Assembly: GCA_027325905.1 (NCBI GenBank) | Contig: DAIEEM010000080.1 | Coordinates: forward strand, 1 to 13,682 | Source: Rhodocyclaceae bacterium | Lineage (GTDB): Bacteria > Pseudomonadota > Gammaproteobacteria > Burkholderiales > Rhodocyclaceae | DNA length: 13,682 nucleotides | Direction of reading: 5' to 3' | In this document: positions 3,032-11,761 of the stretch, piece by piece | How the letters are laid out: the number at the start of each line of letters is the position of its first letter | Numbering within the stretch: position 1 is the first letter of the stretch | Made by a program: the position numbers and the translations under genes | Notes under the pieces: generated by a model | The model's database searches: none | What the model saw: only the letters and a program-made list of their open reading frames with translations | Told to the model about the DNA's origin: nothing

Positions 3032-3047
3032 TGGCATGAGCGTTGCT
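3032..3047 (+). promoter_or_regulatory. Sigma54 (-24/-12) promoter of the nifB operon
   Basis: TGGCATGAGCGTTGCT matches the sigma54 consensus TGGCAC-N5-TTGCW with one change, and the GG and GC doublets are separated by the required ten bases. Transcription should begin near 3058. This rules out the TTG at 3043 and ATG at 3052 as nifB starts, since they lie at or before that point. Confidence 0.87.
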
Positions 3048-3087
3048 GAATATGCTCAGCCTCCAATCACTCCGCGGGAGAAAACAA

Positions 3088-4611
3088 GTGAACCTGCCCG
3101 TCATTGCCCATGCCTCGGCCAAACCCGGCGGATGCAGCGCCAGCGGCTGCGGTTCGACAGCCGGCCAGATGAACGGCTTGCCTGACGAAATTCGCCTCAA
3201 GGTGCAGGATCACCCCTGTTATTCGGAGGAAGCTCATCACCACTTCGCGCGCATGCATGCCGCCGTGGCGCCGGCCTGCAACATCCAGTGCCACTATTGC
3301 AACCGCAAGTACGACTGCGCCAACGAGTCGCGGCCCGGCGTGGTTTCGGAACTGCTGACGCCCGAGCAGGCGGTGAAGAAGACGCTGGCGGTGGCGGCGG
3401 CGATCCCGCAGATGTCGGTGCTGGGCATCGCCGGGCCGGGCGATCCGCTCGCCAATCCGGCGCGCACTTTCGCCACCTTCCGCATGCTGGCCGAGAAGGC
3501 TCCCGACCTCAAGCTTTGCGTGTCGACCAATGGCTTGGCGCTGCCCGAGTCCGTTGCGGAACTGGCGCAGCACAATATCGACCACGTCACCATCACCATC
3601 AACTGCGTCGACCCTGACGTCGGCGCCAAGATCTATCCGTGGATATTCTGGAAGAACAAGCGCATCCATGGCCGTGCGGCGGCCGCCATCCTCGTCGAGC
3701 AGCAGCAGAAGGGCCTGGAGATGCTGGTGGCGCGCGGCATTCTGGTCAAGGTGAATTCGGTGATGATCCCCGGCGTCAATGACCGGCACCTCAAGGAGGT
3801 GTCGCGGATCGTCAAGGCCAAGGGCGCCTTCCTGCACAACGTCATGCCGCTGATCGCCGCCGCAGAGCACGGCACTTTTTACGGCATGATGGGCCAGCGC
3901 AGTCCGACGGCCGCCGATCTGAAGGCTTTGCAGGACGCCTGCGAAGGCGACATGAACATGATGCGCCATTGCCGCCAGTGCCGCGCCGACGCGGTGGGCC
4001 TGCTGGGCGAGGATCGCGGCGCCGAGTTCACGATGGACAAGGTCGAGGCGATGGAGATCGACCACGCAGCGGCGATGGCGCGGCGCCTCGCCCTGCGCGC
4101 CAAGGTCGCCGCGGAGCTCGAGGCCAAGCGGGCGGCGCGGCATGCCGTGGCCGCGGCGCCCGATGTGCCTGCATCGATGCAGGTGATTACGCTGCGCCGC
4201 CCCGCGAAAGTTGTGCAAGGCCGAGCCGTGCTGATGGCCGTGGCGAGCAAGGGCGGCGGCCTGGTCAACGAGCATTTCGGCCACGCCCGCGAGTTCCTGA
4301 TTTACGAGGCGACGGAAGCCGGAGCCAAGCTCGTGGGCACGCGCAAGACCGATCTCTACTGCGCCGGCAACGATAGCTGCGGCGACGGCGAGACCGTGCT
4401 CGCCAAGACCATCCGCGCGCTCGACGGTTGCGAGGCGGTGCTCTGCGCGCGCATCGGCTTCGAGCCCTGGGGCCAGTTGGAAGCGGCCGGCATCAAGCCC
4501 AACGGCGAGCATGCGATGGAACCCATCGAGGAGGCCGTCACGGCCGTGTGGCGCGAAATGCTGGTGGCCGGCAAGCTGGCGGCGCCACTGGCGGCGCAGA
4601 GGAGGGCCTGA
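3088..4611 (+). CDS. nifB: Nitrogenase FeMo-cofactor biosynthesis protein NifB
   Basis: About 507 residues. NifB is a radical-SAM enzyme that builds NifB-co, the iron-sulfur-carbide precursor of the nitrogenase FeMo-cofactor. The N-terminal tail holds GCSASGCGS. The radical-SAM cluster motif CNIQCHYC supplies Cys64, Cys68 and Cys71, followed by NRKYDC and the GIAGPGDPLANP strand. A CxxC (Cys295/Cys298) ends the barrel region. After a charged alanine-rich linker (about 325-375), a NifX/NafY-like domain (about 378-495, with NEHFGHAREFLIYE) forms the common NifB-NifX fusion. GTG 3088 is chosen as start because GGGAG at 3076-3080 sits seven bases ahead and earlier candidates precede the expected transcript start. 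It is the first gene of an operon running to fdxN, nifO, a ferredoxin and probably draG, driven by NifA and sigma54. Confidence 0.95.
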   Translation: MNLPVIAHASAKPGGCSASGCGSTAGQMNGLPDEIRLKVQDHPCYSEEAHHHFARMHAAVAPACNIQCHYCNRKYDCANESRPGVVSELLTPEQAVKKTLAVAAAIPQMSVLGIAGPGDPLANPARTFATFRMLAEKAPDLKLCVSTNGLALPESVAELAQHNIDHVTITINCVDPDVGAKIYPWIFWKNKRIHGRAAAAILVEQQQKGLEMLVARGILVKVNSVMIPGVNDRHLKEVSRIVKAKGAFLHNVMPLIAAAEHGTFYGMMGQRSPTAADLKALQDACEGDMNMMRHCRQCRADAVGLLGEDRGAEFTMDKVEAMEIDHAAAMARRLALRAKVAAELEAKRAARHAVAAAPDVPASMQVITLRRPAKVVQGRAVLMAVASKGGGLVNEHFGHAREFLIYEATEAGAKLVGTRKTDLYCAGNDSCGDGETVLAKTIRALDGCEAVLCARIGFEPWGQLEAAGIKPNGEHAMEPIEEAVTAVWREMLVAGKLAAPLAAQRRA

Positions 4612-6175: not shown

Positions 6176-7099
6176 ATGACACCCGAGTCCACTGTTCGCG
6201 CCATTGAGTGGGTTGCGCGCGCCGAAGCCGCCTACCTCGGGCTGGCCCTGGGCGATGCCCTGGGCGCGACGGTCGAATTCCTCACGCCGCGCGAGATTCG
6301 CAGCCAGTACGGCGTGCACCGCGAGCTCCGCGGCGGCGGCTGGCTGCGCCTCAAGCCCGGCCAGGTGACCGACGACACGACGATGTCGCTGGCTCTGGGG
6401 GCGGCGATCCTGGCGGACGGCGGCACTGTGCAGCCGCTCTCCTGCGCCCACGCCTTCGACGGCTGGATGCGCGCCAAGCCCATCGACATCGGCAATACTG
6501 TGCGGCGTAACCTCATCACCTTCCGCGGCAGCGGCGATCCCTGCGCGCCGCCTTCGGAAAACGACGCCGGCAACGGCGCGGCCATGCGCGTGCTGCCGGT
6601 GGCGCTGGGCACGCTCGGCCGCGAGGAGGCCGCCGTGCGCGGCGCCGTTCGCGCGCAGGCGCACGTCACCCACAACAACGCGTCCTCGGATGCCGCCAGC
6701 GAATTCCTGGCGCTGGCGGTGCAGGACTTCGTGCGCGGCGAGCCGTTGCGCCAAGTCTATCGTCGCCGCTTGATACCGCTTCTGGACGCGCGTCCTGAAT
6801 TTCGCTACAAGGGCCGGCGCCGCGAGAACCCCAGCGGCTGGATTGTCGAAAGCCTGCAGGCAGTGCTGCAGGCGCTGATGGAGACGGACGGCTTCGAGGC
6901 CTGCCTGGTGAACGTGACCAATCGCGGTGGCGATGCGGACACCACCGGGGCCATCGCCGGCATGCTGGCGGGCGCGTTCTACGGCGCCGACGCCATTCCG
7001 GCGCGCTGGCTCAGGGCGCTGGACCCGACCGTGCGCGAGGCGTGCCGTTCGCAGGCGCGCGCGCTCGTCGCCGTCGCTGCAACTGCCGCAATCGCCTGA
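6176..7099 (+). CDS. draG: ADP-ribosyl-[dinitrogen reductase] glycohydrolase DraG
   Basis: 307 residues, close to the usual DraG length of about 295. DraG removes ADP-ribose from the modified arginine of NifH and so reactivates nitrogenase when energy and nitrogen status allow. The dinuclear-metal ligands of the ADP-ribosylglycohydrolase fold are present: GLALGDALGATVEF near residue 22, TDDTTMSL with Asp66 and Asp67, and NRGGDADTTGAIAGML with Asp253 and Asp255. The invariant HVTHNN stretch is at 163-168. ATG 6176 is chosen because it gives a family-like N-terminus; no good ribosome site is seen before it, which suggests weak or coupled translation. It lies 167 bases after the ferredoxin and meets the minus-strand SIR2-like gene one base beyond its stop. 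Its partner draT lies 2.7 kb away on the other strand. Confidence 0.92.
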   Translation: MTPESTVRAIEWVARAEAAYLGLALGDALGATVEFLTPREIRSQYGVHRELRGGGWLRLKPGQVTDDTTMSLALGAAILADGGTVQPLSCAHAFDGWMRAKPIDIGNTVRRNLITFRGSGDPCAPPSENDAGNGAAMRVLPVALGTLGREEAAVRGAVRAQAHVTHNNASSDAASEFLALAVQDFVRGEPLRQVYRRRLIPLLDARPEFRYKGRRRENPSGWIVESLQAVLQALMETDGFEACLVNVTNRGGDADTTGAIAGMLAGAFYGADAIPARWLRALDPTVREACRSQARALVAVAATAAIA

Positions 7100-7100
7100 C

Positions 7101-7946
7101 TCAGGCGCAAGCGCCGGTGTCGGCCATGAGTTCGGCGCAATTGGCTTCGATCAACTCGATGTGCAGCTTGTCGAGGAAGCGGCGCTCCTTGTCGTTCGGA
7201 TTCTCGATCAAGGCCCAGCCGGCCGGCGTCGCCGCGCCATAGATCATGTCGGCCAGCACCATGCGCTCGGTATCGCGGTTGAGGCGCATGCCGAGCAGGA
7301 GATAGCGCTTGTTGCGGCGCAGCGTCTTGACGAAGGACGGCACGGCGAAGCCGCCCATCAACTCCGTGATGAAATCGACGTAGTCGGCGTCGGCGGCGAT
7401 ATACGAAGACTGCGGCTTGGGCGCGCCCATCGGCTTGAACAGCACCGGCTGGTCCGGCGCGGCCTGCTCGGGGACGATGGCCGTGTAGTCGGCGCCATCG
7501 TAAGCGTAGAGCTTGAAACGGAAATCGGTGCCGCCGATGCGGGCGCAGCCGAGCACCAGAACGTGGGGCGTGCCGGCATAGCTGTCGATCAGTTGCGTGT
7601 CGCGGTTGATGTCGATCACATAGGCGGGACGCAGCGCGCGCAGACAGTCGTGCACTGCGGCGCGGCTCCAGTCGGTGGCGTTGTAGGTGGTATCGAGGAA
7701 GCGCGTTACCGCCGCGCGGCCGCGCTTGAGTTCGACGTTCATCGCCGCGCGCGAGAATTCGTACATCAGTTTCGGCGCCATCGGCTTACCGCCGTTCAGT
7801 CCGAGGATCAGTTGCTCGCTGGTGGCCGGGATCGGCGTGCCGCTCGCCGACACGACATCGGCCAGTATGCCGGGGCCGAGATAGGGAACGATGCTGCCGT
7901 CCTTTAGTCCGGCGACGATTTCGGTGCGCAATTGTGGGGAAATCAT
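7101..7946 (-). CDS. SIR2-like domain protein under nif-type control
   Basis: 281 residues from ATG 7946, which has AAGGAGA (7951-7957) at the right distance. The protein follows the SIR2-like (SIR2_2) plan: a glycine-rich nucleotide loop YLGPGIL (22-28) for GAGxS; RPAYVIDINRDTQLID (106-121) for the TTNYD strand, keeping Asn114 and Asp116; LFKPMGAP (169-176) where the family has K-L-H-G; ADADYVDFI; and RYLLLGMRLNRDTERM (214-229) for the LGYSLxD motif. The catalytic His of the HG motif is replaced by Met173, so deacylase or NADase activity is doubtful while NAD or ADP-ribose binding remains possible. A NifA site and sigma54-like promoter lie upstream, and draG is the tail-to-tail neighbour. 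A role in NAD-dependent control of nitrogenase is inference; the exact function is unknown to me. Confidence 0.78.
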   Translation of the reverse strand: MISPQLRTEIVAGLKDGSIVPYLGPGILADVVSASGTPIPATSEQLILGLNGGKPMAPKLMYEFSRAAMNVELKRGRAAVTRFLDTTYNATDWSRAAVHDCLRALRPAYVIDINRDTQLIDSYAGTPHVLVLGCARIGGTDFRFKLYAYDGADYTAIVPEQAAPDQPVLFKPMGAPKPQSSYIAADADYVDFITELMGGFAVPSFVKTLRRNKRYLLLGMRLNRDTERMVLADMIYGAATPAGWALIENPNDKERRFLDKLHIELIEANCAELMADTGACA

Positions 7947-7974
7947 GTTGTCTCCTTGCTGTTCCTGCGTTCCC

Positions 7975-7990
7975 TGCAAGAAGCAGGCCG
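7975..7990 (-). promoter_or_regulatory. Probable sigma54 promoter of the SIR2-like gene
   Basis: Read on the minus strand, CGGCCTGCTTCTTGCA has GG and GC doublets ten bases apart, a perfect TTGCA -12 box and GGC at -24. Three positions of the -24 box differ from consensus. Transcription would start near 7964, just ahead of the ribosome site at 7951-7957, and the NifA site at 8032-8047 is about 76 bases upstream. That agreement in placement is the main support. Confidence 0.6.
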
Positions 7991-8031
7991 AGCGCGCCAG
8001 GCGCGCGGCGGCTCGGCATACGCGTCGGGTT

Positions 8032-8047
8032 TGTCGCTTGTGCGACA
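8032..8047. promoter_or_regulatory. NifA upstream activator site between the SIR2-like and diguanylate cyclase genes
   Basis: TGTCGCTTGTGCGACA is an exact TGT-N10-ACA site. It sits within a perfect ten-base inverted repeat, GGTTTGTCGC (8028-8037) and GCGACAAACC (8042-8051), with only TTGT between. It is the most symmetrical of the three NifA sites here and lies at a workable distance from sigma54-like promoters on both sides. Confidence 0.78.
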
Positions 8048-8131: not shown

Positions 8132-8178
8132 CGCGGCAAGCCGTAGTTCCGATGCGTCTGGGCTGGAGGGAGCCTCGA

Positions 8179-9354
8179 ATGCTGAAAGCGACACTGGCGA
8201 AACTGTGGCACCACGCCTGGTCGATGATCCTGATCGAAATGACCACCGAAGAAGTCGGCTGGTTGTTCTGTCCGGGCGGGCACCTCTCCCTGCTGTCGAA
8301 GCGGCGCACGGCCGTCATCCTGACGCGGGTGCGGCTGGTGGCCGGCCTTTTCGCGGTGTTGACGCCGCTCTGGATCGTCGTCGACATGCTGGTCTTTCCT
8401 TCCGACGTCTGGCATGGCTTGGCCTGGGCGCGCGTGGCGGCGTCGGCGGCCTTCGGCGCGATCGTTTTCGTCAAATGGAGCATCGACCGCAGCCGCGACG
8501 CTTATCGGGCGCTCGGCCTGCTGCTGGCAGTGCCGTCCGCCTTCTTCCTGTTCTCCTACGGACATATCGCCGCCTTCGATCTGCATGGGCTGCAGAAGGC
8601 CATCGCCAGCGGCTACACGTTCCTGCCGTTTGTCATGCTGGCGGGCTTGTCGATATTTCCGCTGACCCTAGTCGAATGTTTGGCCTTCGCCCTGCCGATG
8701 CTGCTGATGCCCGTTCTTGCCACCGCCGTGAGCGACGCGCCGATGGACCTGCCTGCGCTGGGCGTGACGATCTGGCTGCTGACCCTGATCGTCTGCGTCT
8801 CGGCCCTGGCCGGCCTGTCGCAGCTGGGTTTTATGATCGTCTTCATCCGCGAGGCGATCCGCGACAACATGACCGGCTGCTTCACGCGCAATAGCGGCGA
8901 AGAACTGCTCGACCTCCAGTTCATCCTGTCGACGCGCATCCATGCGCCGTTGTCGCTGGCCTTCATCGATCTCGACCATTTCAAGCACGTCAACGACAGC
9001 TTCGGCCATGAAGCCGGTGACCAGGTTCTGCGAAATGCGACGTTGCAGTTGCGCCGGCACCTTCGGGCCGGCGACATCCTGGCGCGCTGGGGCGGCGAGG
9101 AATTCGTGCTGATCCTGCCGAACGCCACCCGGCAGCAGGCTTGCCAGGGTTTGCTGCGGGTCTGCGAACTCGGGCTGGGCGCCGCGCCGGACGGCGTGCC
9201 GGTGACGGCCAGCATCGGCGTGGCCGAGCGGGTCGAGGACAACGCCAGGGACTGGGCCGAACTCGTGGAACTCGCCGATGCCCGCATGTACGAGGCCAAG
9301 CAGTCGGGGCGCAACCGGATCGTCGGTTGCGAGGACGTTCGCGGCATGCCATGA
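8179..9354 (+). CDS. Membrane-bound GGDEF diguanylate cyclase
   Basis: 391 residues. The N-terminal half has about five or six hydrophobic segments (roughly 52-74, 83-99, 111-127, 146-163, 165-183, 194-222), forming a membrane sensor region of no family I recognise. The C-terminal GGDEF domain (about 228-385) makes c-di-GMP from two GTP: DNMTGCFTRNSGEEL, FIDLDHFKHVNDSFGHEAGD, and the active-site motif GGEEF at 305-309. The product-inhibition site RxxD is present as RAGD (296-299), five residues before it. The enzyme is predicted active and feedback-controlled. ATG 8179 is preferred over ATG 8152 because GGAGGGAG (8165-8172) lies six bases ahead. It diverges from the SIR2-like gene and shares its control region with the NifA site at 8032-8047. 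A two-way terminator closes the gene. Confidence 0.9.
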   Translation: MLKATLAKLWHHAWSMILIEMTTEEVGWLFCPGGHLSLLSKRRTAVILTRVRLVAGLFAVLTPLWIVVDMLVFPSDVWHGLAWARVAASAAFGAIVFVKWSIDRSRDAYRALGLLLAVPSAFFLFSYGHIAAFDLHGLQKAIASGYTFLPFVMLAGLSIFPLTLVECLAFALPMLLMPVLATAVSDAPMDLPALGVTIWLLTLIVCVSALAGLSQLGFMIVFIREAIRDNMTGCFTRNSGEELLDLQFILSTRIHAPLSLAFIDLDHFKHVNDSFGHEAGDQVLRNATLQLRRHLRAGDILARWGGEEFVLILPNATRQQACQGLLRVCELGLGAAPDGVPVTASIGVAERVEDNARDWAELVELADARMYEAKQSGRNRIVGCEDVRGMP

Positions 9355-9844: not shown

Positions 9845-10750
9845 TCAGAGGGTTTTGATGGTCACCGCGTAAGCCCCGCCGACGACGAGGTATTCGTCCT
9901 CGCCCTTGAGCACGCCCGGCAGCAGCCCGTAGTGAAAAAATATCTTCGCCGACGGCACCTGCGTCGCCAGGATGTAGTCGCCGAATTCGCCGGCCCGTTC
10001 GCGCGATCGGGTAAAGGAGGCGAGGTTGTTGAAGAGCACGATTTGGCGGCGGCCGTCGCCTGCCAGCACTTCATGGTCGCCGATGCGGTTGATGCCGCGG
10101 TAGAGCTCGATCGTCGGGCGCGCCGGCGCGTTGCGGCGGAACTCGTACTGGCAGTAGGCGTAGAGCAGGTCTAGCTGGCCTTCCAGCGCATTGGTGCCCG
10201 AGATGCCGGCGGCGCGCATCTCCTGGTAGCGCCGGTAGGCGGGACCGACGAAGTCGCGCAAGGGCTCGCGGTGGAAGCGCGGCAGCAGTCCGAAGCGCGA
10301 TTCCACCCAGCCCTTCAAGACCGCACCTTCGCGGCCGTCCGAATCGAAGCTCCAGCCACGCAGCGCGCGCATCCAGTTGGCCTTGGCGCGCTGTTGCGAG
10401 GCGTCGGTGAGGCCGGCTTCTTCCAACTGGTCGAGGCAGAAATGCACGGCGACATAATCGCGGAAGGCGGCGGCGCGTTCGGCGCTGTCGCCGACGAGAT
10501 CGAGGCGGCGAAACAAATCGGCATGCAATTCGGCGACGCCGTCGAGCAGCAGGTCGGTGGGATGGCGCTGGAAGGTGACGCTGCCGAGTATGACGGCGGG
10601 AAGATTGCAGCGGTTGATCGGCAAGCGCGCCCATCTCGGCAGACTCGGCGGCAGCGTCTCACCTTCATTGTCGGTACTGCGACAAAGCGCTGCGCCGTTG
10701 TCGGATGCCGCGGCAGCGGCAGCGGCCGCTCGCTGAATAACTCGATTCAT
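9845..10750 (-). CDS. draT: NAD+--dinitrogen-reductase ADP-D-ribosyltransferase DraT
   Basis: 301 residues. DraT moves ADP-ribose from NAD onto one arginine of NifH and shuts nitrogenase down when ammonium appears or energy falls. Family features: ARLPINRCNLPAVILGS (41-57); ELYRGINRIG with Arg218 as the first element of an R-S-ExE-type transferase site; LFNNLASFTRSRERAGEFGD (239-258); and LPGVLKGEDEYLV with Glu284 and Glu286. The first 40 residues are low in complexity, including eight alanines in a row, and ATG 10750 has no ribosome site; TTG at 10622-10624 (codon 43) is a less likely alternative. The gene diverges from nifH, and the nifH NifA site lies inside its codons 23-28. draG is 2.7 kb away in the nifB operon rather than adjacent. 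Confidence 0.92.
   Translation of the reverse strand: MNRVIQRAAAAAAAASDNGAALCRSTDNEGETLPPSLPRWARLPINRCNLPAVILGSVTFQRHPTDLLLDGVAELHADLFRRLDLVGDSAERAAAFRDYVAVHFCLDQLEEAGLTDASQQRAKANWMRALRGWSFDSDGREGAVLKGWVESRFGLLPRFHREPLRDFVGPAYRRYQEMRAAGISGTNALEGQLDLLYAYCQYEFRRNAPARPTIELYRGINRIGDHEVLAGDGRRQIVLFNNLASFTRSRERAGEFGDYILATQVPSAKIFFHYGLLPGVLKGEDEYLVVGGAYAVTIKTL
10669..10684 (+). promoter_or_regulatory. NifA upstream activator site for nifH
   Basis: TGTCGGTACTGCGACA is an exact TGT-N10-ACA site with palindromic TGTCG/CGACA arms. Its centre is about 130 bases ahead of the expected nifH transcription start. It falls within the 5' coding region of the divergent draT gene. Confidence 0.85.
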
Positions 10751-10779: not shown

Positions 10780-10795
10780 TGGCATGGTCTTTGCG
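10780..10795 (+). promoter_or_regulatory. Sigma54 (-24/-12) promoter of nifHDK
   Basis: TGGCATGGTCTTTGCG matches TGGCAC-N5-TTGCW at all but two positions, with GG and GC doublets ten bases apart. Transcription should begin near 10806, leaving a leader of about 60 bases before nifH. Confidence 0.9.

Positions 10796-10840: not shown

Positions 10841-11761
<921 letters not shown>

Follow-up and report, generated by a model that had tools for sequence, protein, structure and literature searches.

The window analyzed here (the whole 13,682-nucleotide stretch of a Rhodocyclaceae bacterium, positions 1 to 13,682 of contig DAIEEM010000080.1 in GenBank assembly GCA_027325905.1; our contig C227, from an assembly that is 59% complete) encodes, among nitrogen fixation (nif) genes, a 281-amino acid (aa) SIR2-like protein, which is, on balance, probably a member of the PnfA family, i.e., a non-catalytic SIR2 protein whose support of nitrogenase, in cells that respire, is post-transcriptional. 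The PnfA-like protein would be made from a NifA/sigma54-type promoter as a nif accessory; its SIR2 nicotinamide adenine dinucleotide (NAD)-cleaving (NADase) fold, kept without the catalytic pair of residues, would make it a non-catalytic and probably nucleotide-binding protein, and it would act post-transcriptionally, keeping nitrogenase supplied or protected during respiration on O2 or nitrate, independently of DraT and DraG. The features on which this proposal is built are the following:

7101..7946, minus strand: the pnfA-like gene, encoding the 281-aa pseudo-SIR2 protein (open reading frame, SIR2_2 match, structure model and alignment)
7975..7990, minus strand: a sigma54-like -24/-12 element, CGGCCTGCTTCTTGCA, with 9 of the 12 consensus letters
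8032..8047, no strand assigned: a NifA-type upstream activator site, TGTCGCTTGTGCGACA, TGT-N10-ACA with 6-base arms

Of the span 7101..8047 in the initial annotation, 7101-7946 is the open reading frame and 7947-8047 is upstream DNA; AAGGAGACAAC stands immediately 5' of the ATG. The product matches Pfam SIR2_2 (PF13289) with 35.5 bits against a gathering cut-off of 24.5, the only family listed in a Pfam scan at E-values up to 1, and the AlphaFold2 (AF2) model is confident (predicted local distance difference test, pLDDT, 92.8), with the SIR2 NADases KomC, ThsA and DSR2 as its nearest solved folds, which together uphold the earlier designation of the protein as SIR2-like. None of the NCBIfam models matched it, and a single-sequence search of the PDB gave weak matches only (best E 0.14). 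Classical sirtuins (PF02146) differ from the window protein, which matches SIR2_2 only and has its catalytic His missing; PF02146 remained unmatched by the protein and had 0 matches in its own, 59% complete, assembly.

As first read from the letters, Asn114 and Asp116 were kept and the catalytic His was replaced by Met173, and both statements are borne out by HMMER, which pairs DINRD with TTNYD of KomC and ThsA and, in a weak stretch of the alignment, KPMG with KLHG of SeThsA, thus placing Met173 at the catalytic His position. A residue census of 114 distinct relatives (6 fragments left out, identical proteins counted once) found the catalytic Asn/His pair complete in none of them: His is lost in 91 and Asn in 23, both being lost in 12 of those 23. 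The tree of the same relatives splits, with a support of 1.0, into a branch A of 23 members, in which residue 114 is Trp (22) or Gly (1) and the His is kept in 11, and a branch B of 91 members, the window protein included, in which residue 114 is Asn; mean identity amounts to 52% within branch A and, over sampled pairs, 66% within branch B, with 25% between the two. Invariant in all 114 aligned members are Gly24, Pro172, Gly174, Asp186, Asp188, Val190, Arg210, Gly219 and Arg228. As judged from the aligned sequences, the absence of a complete catalytic pair throughout the family is a new observation, and with that pair missing the pnfA-like protein is probably non-catalytic and would act through binding and not through catalysis. 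Retention of the fold, together with the invariant glycines and charged residues, would fit a protein that holds a ligand, for which NAD and ADP-ribose are candidates; binding of either by the window protein, like the choice of its partner, is an inference. Among the control sequences from outside the family, from which L170 (wrong frame) and L176 (poor frame) were left out, L162, from the same order, is SIR2-like with a C-terminal half that by eye resembles TIR, and it is also without the NxD and HG motifs.

Both promoter elements proposed initially, the activator site at 8032-8047 and the -24/-12 element at 7990-7975, were recovered where they had first been read, the former as an exact TGT-N10-ACA. 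Their conservation was assessed in 81 distinct upstream regions of at least 250 bases, taken from 90 loci with relatives (9 dropped: 2 short, 7 duplicates), against 4000 random 400-mers drawn from the same loci, an element being called sigma54-like at 9 or more letters of what we take to be the 12-letter sigma54 consensus. TGT-N10-ACA occurs in 77/81 upstream regions versus 7.8% of the random 400-mers, the sigma54-like element in 70/81 versus 13.1%, and the two in correct order in 66/81 versus 2.4%; distances to the start codon are 95-125 bases for 62 of the 77 sites and 44-55 bases for 65 of the 70 elements. As the 81 loci are related, these counts show conservation in place and not independent origins. 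In seven more distant relatives, the site is present at L120, L121, L124, L125, L147 and L148 and absent at L149. An inverted-repeat search upstream of the gene returned 0 pairs, which probably reflects its minimum of 12, the arms of the site being only 6 bases long. That the pnfA-like gene has a NifA/sigma54-type promoter, and that it is nif-linked across diazotrophs, is supported.

Carriers of the gene are, almost without exception, carriers of nif. Throughout the phylum sample (299 genomes), 16 genomes carry it; 13 of these belong to the 36 whose nifH exceeds the cut-off and the other 3 have nifB, so that the restriction to diazotrophs holds in 16/16. Within the 121 genomes of the host family, where nifH was called with the window NifH at E up to 1e-100, the gene was matched in 47, nifH in 49 and both in 44, and 46 of the 47 carriers have nifH or nifB; the link of the homologues to nif, which the first interpretation had put up for checking, is supported. 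Of the three family carriers without nifH, G005 and G387 have nifB, and the exception, G424 (no nifB over the cut-off), is a weak match (E 4.8e-18); in the nifH-containing G366, about 3 Mb separate a further weak match (E 1.2e-20) from the nif genes. The nifH-less carriers of both scans that have nifB are G128 (on the same contig as the gene), G103, G311, G005 and G387. When neighbors were counted at the closest loci (the best 80 of 405 relatives), nifH, nifD or nifB was found at 54, a dra gene at 64 and either at 65.

The proposed function comes from a probable relative in the literature, namely pnfA (PST1325) of Pseudomonas stutzeri A1501, whose 31.7-kDa product, according to the accessible part of the 2010 report (PMC2820453), has relatives reported in diazotrophs only (Azoarcus BH72, 55%; Dechloromonas aromatica, 54%), besides which there is another subfamily with 20% identity, resembling the split between our two branches. 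In the same excerpts (PMC2820453), pnfA expression is NifA- and sigma54-dependent by quantitative reverse transcription PCR, and a non-polar mutant, which could be complemented, retains 23% of the nitrogenase activity with the nifH transcript unchanged; under plain anaerobiosis the mutant behaves as the wild type does, in microaerobic culture its activity is strongly reduced, and it no longer fixes N2 when nitrate serves as the acceptor. Electron transfer or oxygen protection was the role proposed, and part of PnfA was likened to UspA and ETF-alpha, SIR2 being unmentioned in the portion available (PMC2820453); PST_1325 bears the label “SIR2 family protein” in a 2024 table seen as an extract (PMC11332353) and rises about 9-fold in Escherichia coli carrying the nif island, per the available text (PMC6053447). 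As far as these sources go, PnfA is like the window protein in its similar size, its own -24/-12 promoter with a TGT-N10-ACA site and its nif linkage, the genes differing in that P. stutzeri pnfA and nifH point away from each other, the strain being one in which DraT and DraG were not found, whereas the window gene lies between draT and draG. By this analogy the window protein may share the role of P. stutzeri PnfA, the one member for which the literature searched reports that nitrogenase activity drops upon inactivation. The literature searched yielded no functional study of PnfA after 2010 and, in the parts of it that were accessible, no statement of the missing catalytic pair or of the hemerythrin link described next.

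A same-strand hemerythrin gene starts within 1600 bases downstream at 30 of the 76 loci having at least 1300 bases of downstream sequence (4 of the 80 were shorter and were dropped): directly behind the pnfA-like gene in 7, past a 185-aa protein in 22 and after a gap in 1. A Rieske protein follows at 12/76 loci, and in another class (L121, L124 and L125) the gene is followed by superoxide dismutase (SOD) and a rhodanese-ankyrin protein, L121 having a hemerythrin downstream as well; downstream partners were tested against Pfam in the L053 and L121 copies only, the others being assigned by similarity. The chance of a same-strand hemerythrin within 1600 bases of a random gene would be about 0.7%, by arithmetic from the 14 hemerythrin matches of the own assembly. 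The hemerythrin linkage of the family is a new observation, and the O2-binding or superoxide-removing nature of these neighbors suggests a connection with respiration and oxygen. The 185-aa intervening protein itself (L053:8866-9423 and its relatives, 22/76 loci) has no Pfam or NCBIfam match, and a product encoded behind the pnfA-like gene in an Oleiphilaceae metagenome-assembled genome, in which that gene is divergent from nifH, looks bacterioferritin-like by eye (L075:9083-9658).

A tentative extension, which we regard as possible though somewhat doubtful, is that the two-way loss of NAD cleavage in a diazotroph-specific SIR2 family has yielded sensors that read NAD(H) or ADP-ribose and inform nitrogenase or its electron supply of the respiratory state, often with hemerythrin or SOD encoded behind them, as a post-transcriptional control without DraT/DraG. 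Viewing the PnfA family as SIR2 pseudoenzymes, and joining it with the rhizobial nif-cluster SIR2 proteins treated below, would give one hypothesis for many diazotrophs and singles out hemerythrin as a partner, and respiration as a condition, that can be tested; it may also be of relevance to the transfer of nif clusters into new hosts, in which such accessory genes are possibly omitted.

Several observations weigh against the assignment to a non-catalytic PnfA family acting in respiring cells. The gene is missing from 5 of the 49 nifH-containing host-family genomes, and 15 of the 80 nearest loci have none of the tested nif/dra genes in their flanks. The AF2 input alignment was narrow (61-88% identity), the 11 Trp114 sequences that retain the His leave room for residual chemistry, and L162 and L171, outside the family, are also without the pair or its His. 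The connection of the window protein to PnfA is made through identities printed in 2010 and the 2024 label. As for oxygen, no counted downstream hemerythrin was found in 46/76 loci, the 30 positives share descent, and no hemerythrin adjoins the pnfA-like gene of the window, whose assembly has 14 hemerythrin matches, so that O2 protection would be ascribed to this particular protein by analogy.

Of the rival explanations, the one that survives best, rather unlikely as it is, makes the protein an accessory of FeMo-cofactor or metallocluster assembly, a maturation chaperone not using NAD, and it draws on branch A, which lies mostly beside nifT, nifZ and nifB. All 23 branch A loci, which include rhizobial symbiotic plasmids, are among nif genes, and 22 have a nifT match or annotation (the exception is L140). 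With the E-value limit set at 1e-3, tblastn matched 72 plasmid records; in each of the 8 whose regions were examined there is a nif cluster with nifT in the stretch, the gene coming directly after nifT in 7. Such nifT-linked proteins (e.g., RHE_RS30545 of Rhizobium etli p42d) are, like the window protein, nif-cluster SIR2_2 proteins, differing from it by having only ~25% identity and Trp/Gly instead of Asn114; by description, Rcc03262 of Rhodobacter capsulatus and ZMO1821 of Zymomonas mobilis were grouped with them. Rcc03262 is the last gene of the operon nifB1-rcc03265-nifZT-rcc03262, its product not being found in the proteome of a nifA mutant and being low in the wild type (7.3 and 6.6 fmol), as given in the accessible text (PMC6925177), and Rhodovulum nif operons likewise have a SIR2-like protein beside nifT according to a figure legend (PMC9412634). 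The window gene, however, is not beside nifT, and the P. stutzeri defect, as far as it is described in the excerpts, varies with the electron acceptor and does not show in plain anaerobiosis, which is not what a general defect in the cofactor would give. Additional, fragmentary copies of the nifT-linked SIR2 gene (L135-L139) were also seen in G103, G311 (near-identical to R. etli proteins) and G258; L135 and L137 are near nifB fragments, and L136 is near nifT and nifS fragments.

That the protein tunes DraT/DraG or binds ADP-ribosylated NifH, its pocket sensing ADP-ribose or NAD and adjusting the NifH switch, was the role first suggested for it, and it now appears improbable. The gene does abut draG as had been stated, its stop being one base from the convergent draG stop (7099), but convergent draG within 400 bases downstream is seen at only 15 of the 80 loci (some contigs end early), and a hemerythrin gene separates the two genes in L002 and L003 (79-82% identity), whereas none stands between them in the window and L001. 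The draG contact is one of several local arrangements, and it may follow from the loss of an intervening hemerythrin gene. In the phylum sample, 4/24 nifH-containing genomes with draT carry the gene versus 9/12 without (Fisher p 0.001, kinship uncorrected), and the figures for the host family are 41/45 versus 3/4; co-occurrence with draT beyond what nif explains was not found, and since draT does not predict the gene within nifH-containing genomes, nif and not dra is its constant companion. No dra gene was listed for the 8 plasmid regions in nif clusters (their gene table is incomplete), and A1501, according to the available part of the report (PMC2820453), needs pnfA for its full activity without a DraT or DraG having been found. 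DraT/DraG tuning as a general role is rejected on the co-occurrence and the A1501 phenotype; what is retained of the first interpretation is the SIR2 fold without the catalytic His, the NifA/sigma54-type promoter and the nif linkage. A DraT/DraG link peculiar to this lineage is possible, because 41 of the 45 family genomes with both nifH and draT carry the gene, and a dra gene lies near it at 64 of the 80 closest loci.

An active NAD-dependent deacylase with nitrogenase or NifA as its target, a role supposed for the nif-island SIR2 protein of Z. mobilis, ZMO1821, which is induced under N2 fixation and is a predicted deacetylase in the text available (PMC8600466), is very improbable and is rejected on residues, the catalytic pair being complete in 0/114; the pseudoenzyme view weighs against the deacetylase role supposed for such a protein. 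An anti-phage SIR2 NADase lying in the nif region by chance, favored by the defence NADases KomC, ThsA and DSR2 being the nearest solved folds, is scarcely credible and is rejected, as the PADLOC defence models matched 0 families and the window protein, in contrast to those NADases, has an incomplete Asn/His pair, no further domain, a NifA-type promoter and a nif-bound distribution.

With the non-catalytic PnfA family member retained as the preferred reading, its surroundings can be described. The window contains, in order, nifB, a 4Fe-4S ferredoxin, an ArsC-like nitrogenase-associated protein, a 2Fe-2S ferredoxin, draG and the pnfA-like gene, beyond which follow a GGDEF gene, a cold-shock-like gene, draT, nifH and nifD (the cold-shock-like gene and nifD are what we take them to be by recognition only). 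Four of these, as context, are:

3043..4611, plus strand: nifB (TIGR01290, 639 bits, cut-off 343.65); TGT-N10-ACA lies at 2960-2975, a sigma54-like site at 3033
6176..7099, plus strand: draG, the convergent neighbor (TIGR02662, 361.8 bits, cut-off 337.05), which does not imply a partnership with the pnfA-like gene
9845..10750, minus strand: draT (PF07357 DRAT, 331 bits, cut-off 25)
10865..11761, plus strand: nifH (TIGR01287, above the cut-off); TGT-N10-ACA lies at 10669-10684, a sigma54-like site at 10781

No RNA family reached the gathering threshold in the window. The GGDEF gene (8152-9354), divergent from the pnfA-like gene and placed between it and draT, has no match of at least 150 bits in L001 and is matched in L002. 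The window NifB (3043-4611) has a C-terminal Nitro_FeMo-Co domain (PF02579).
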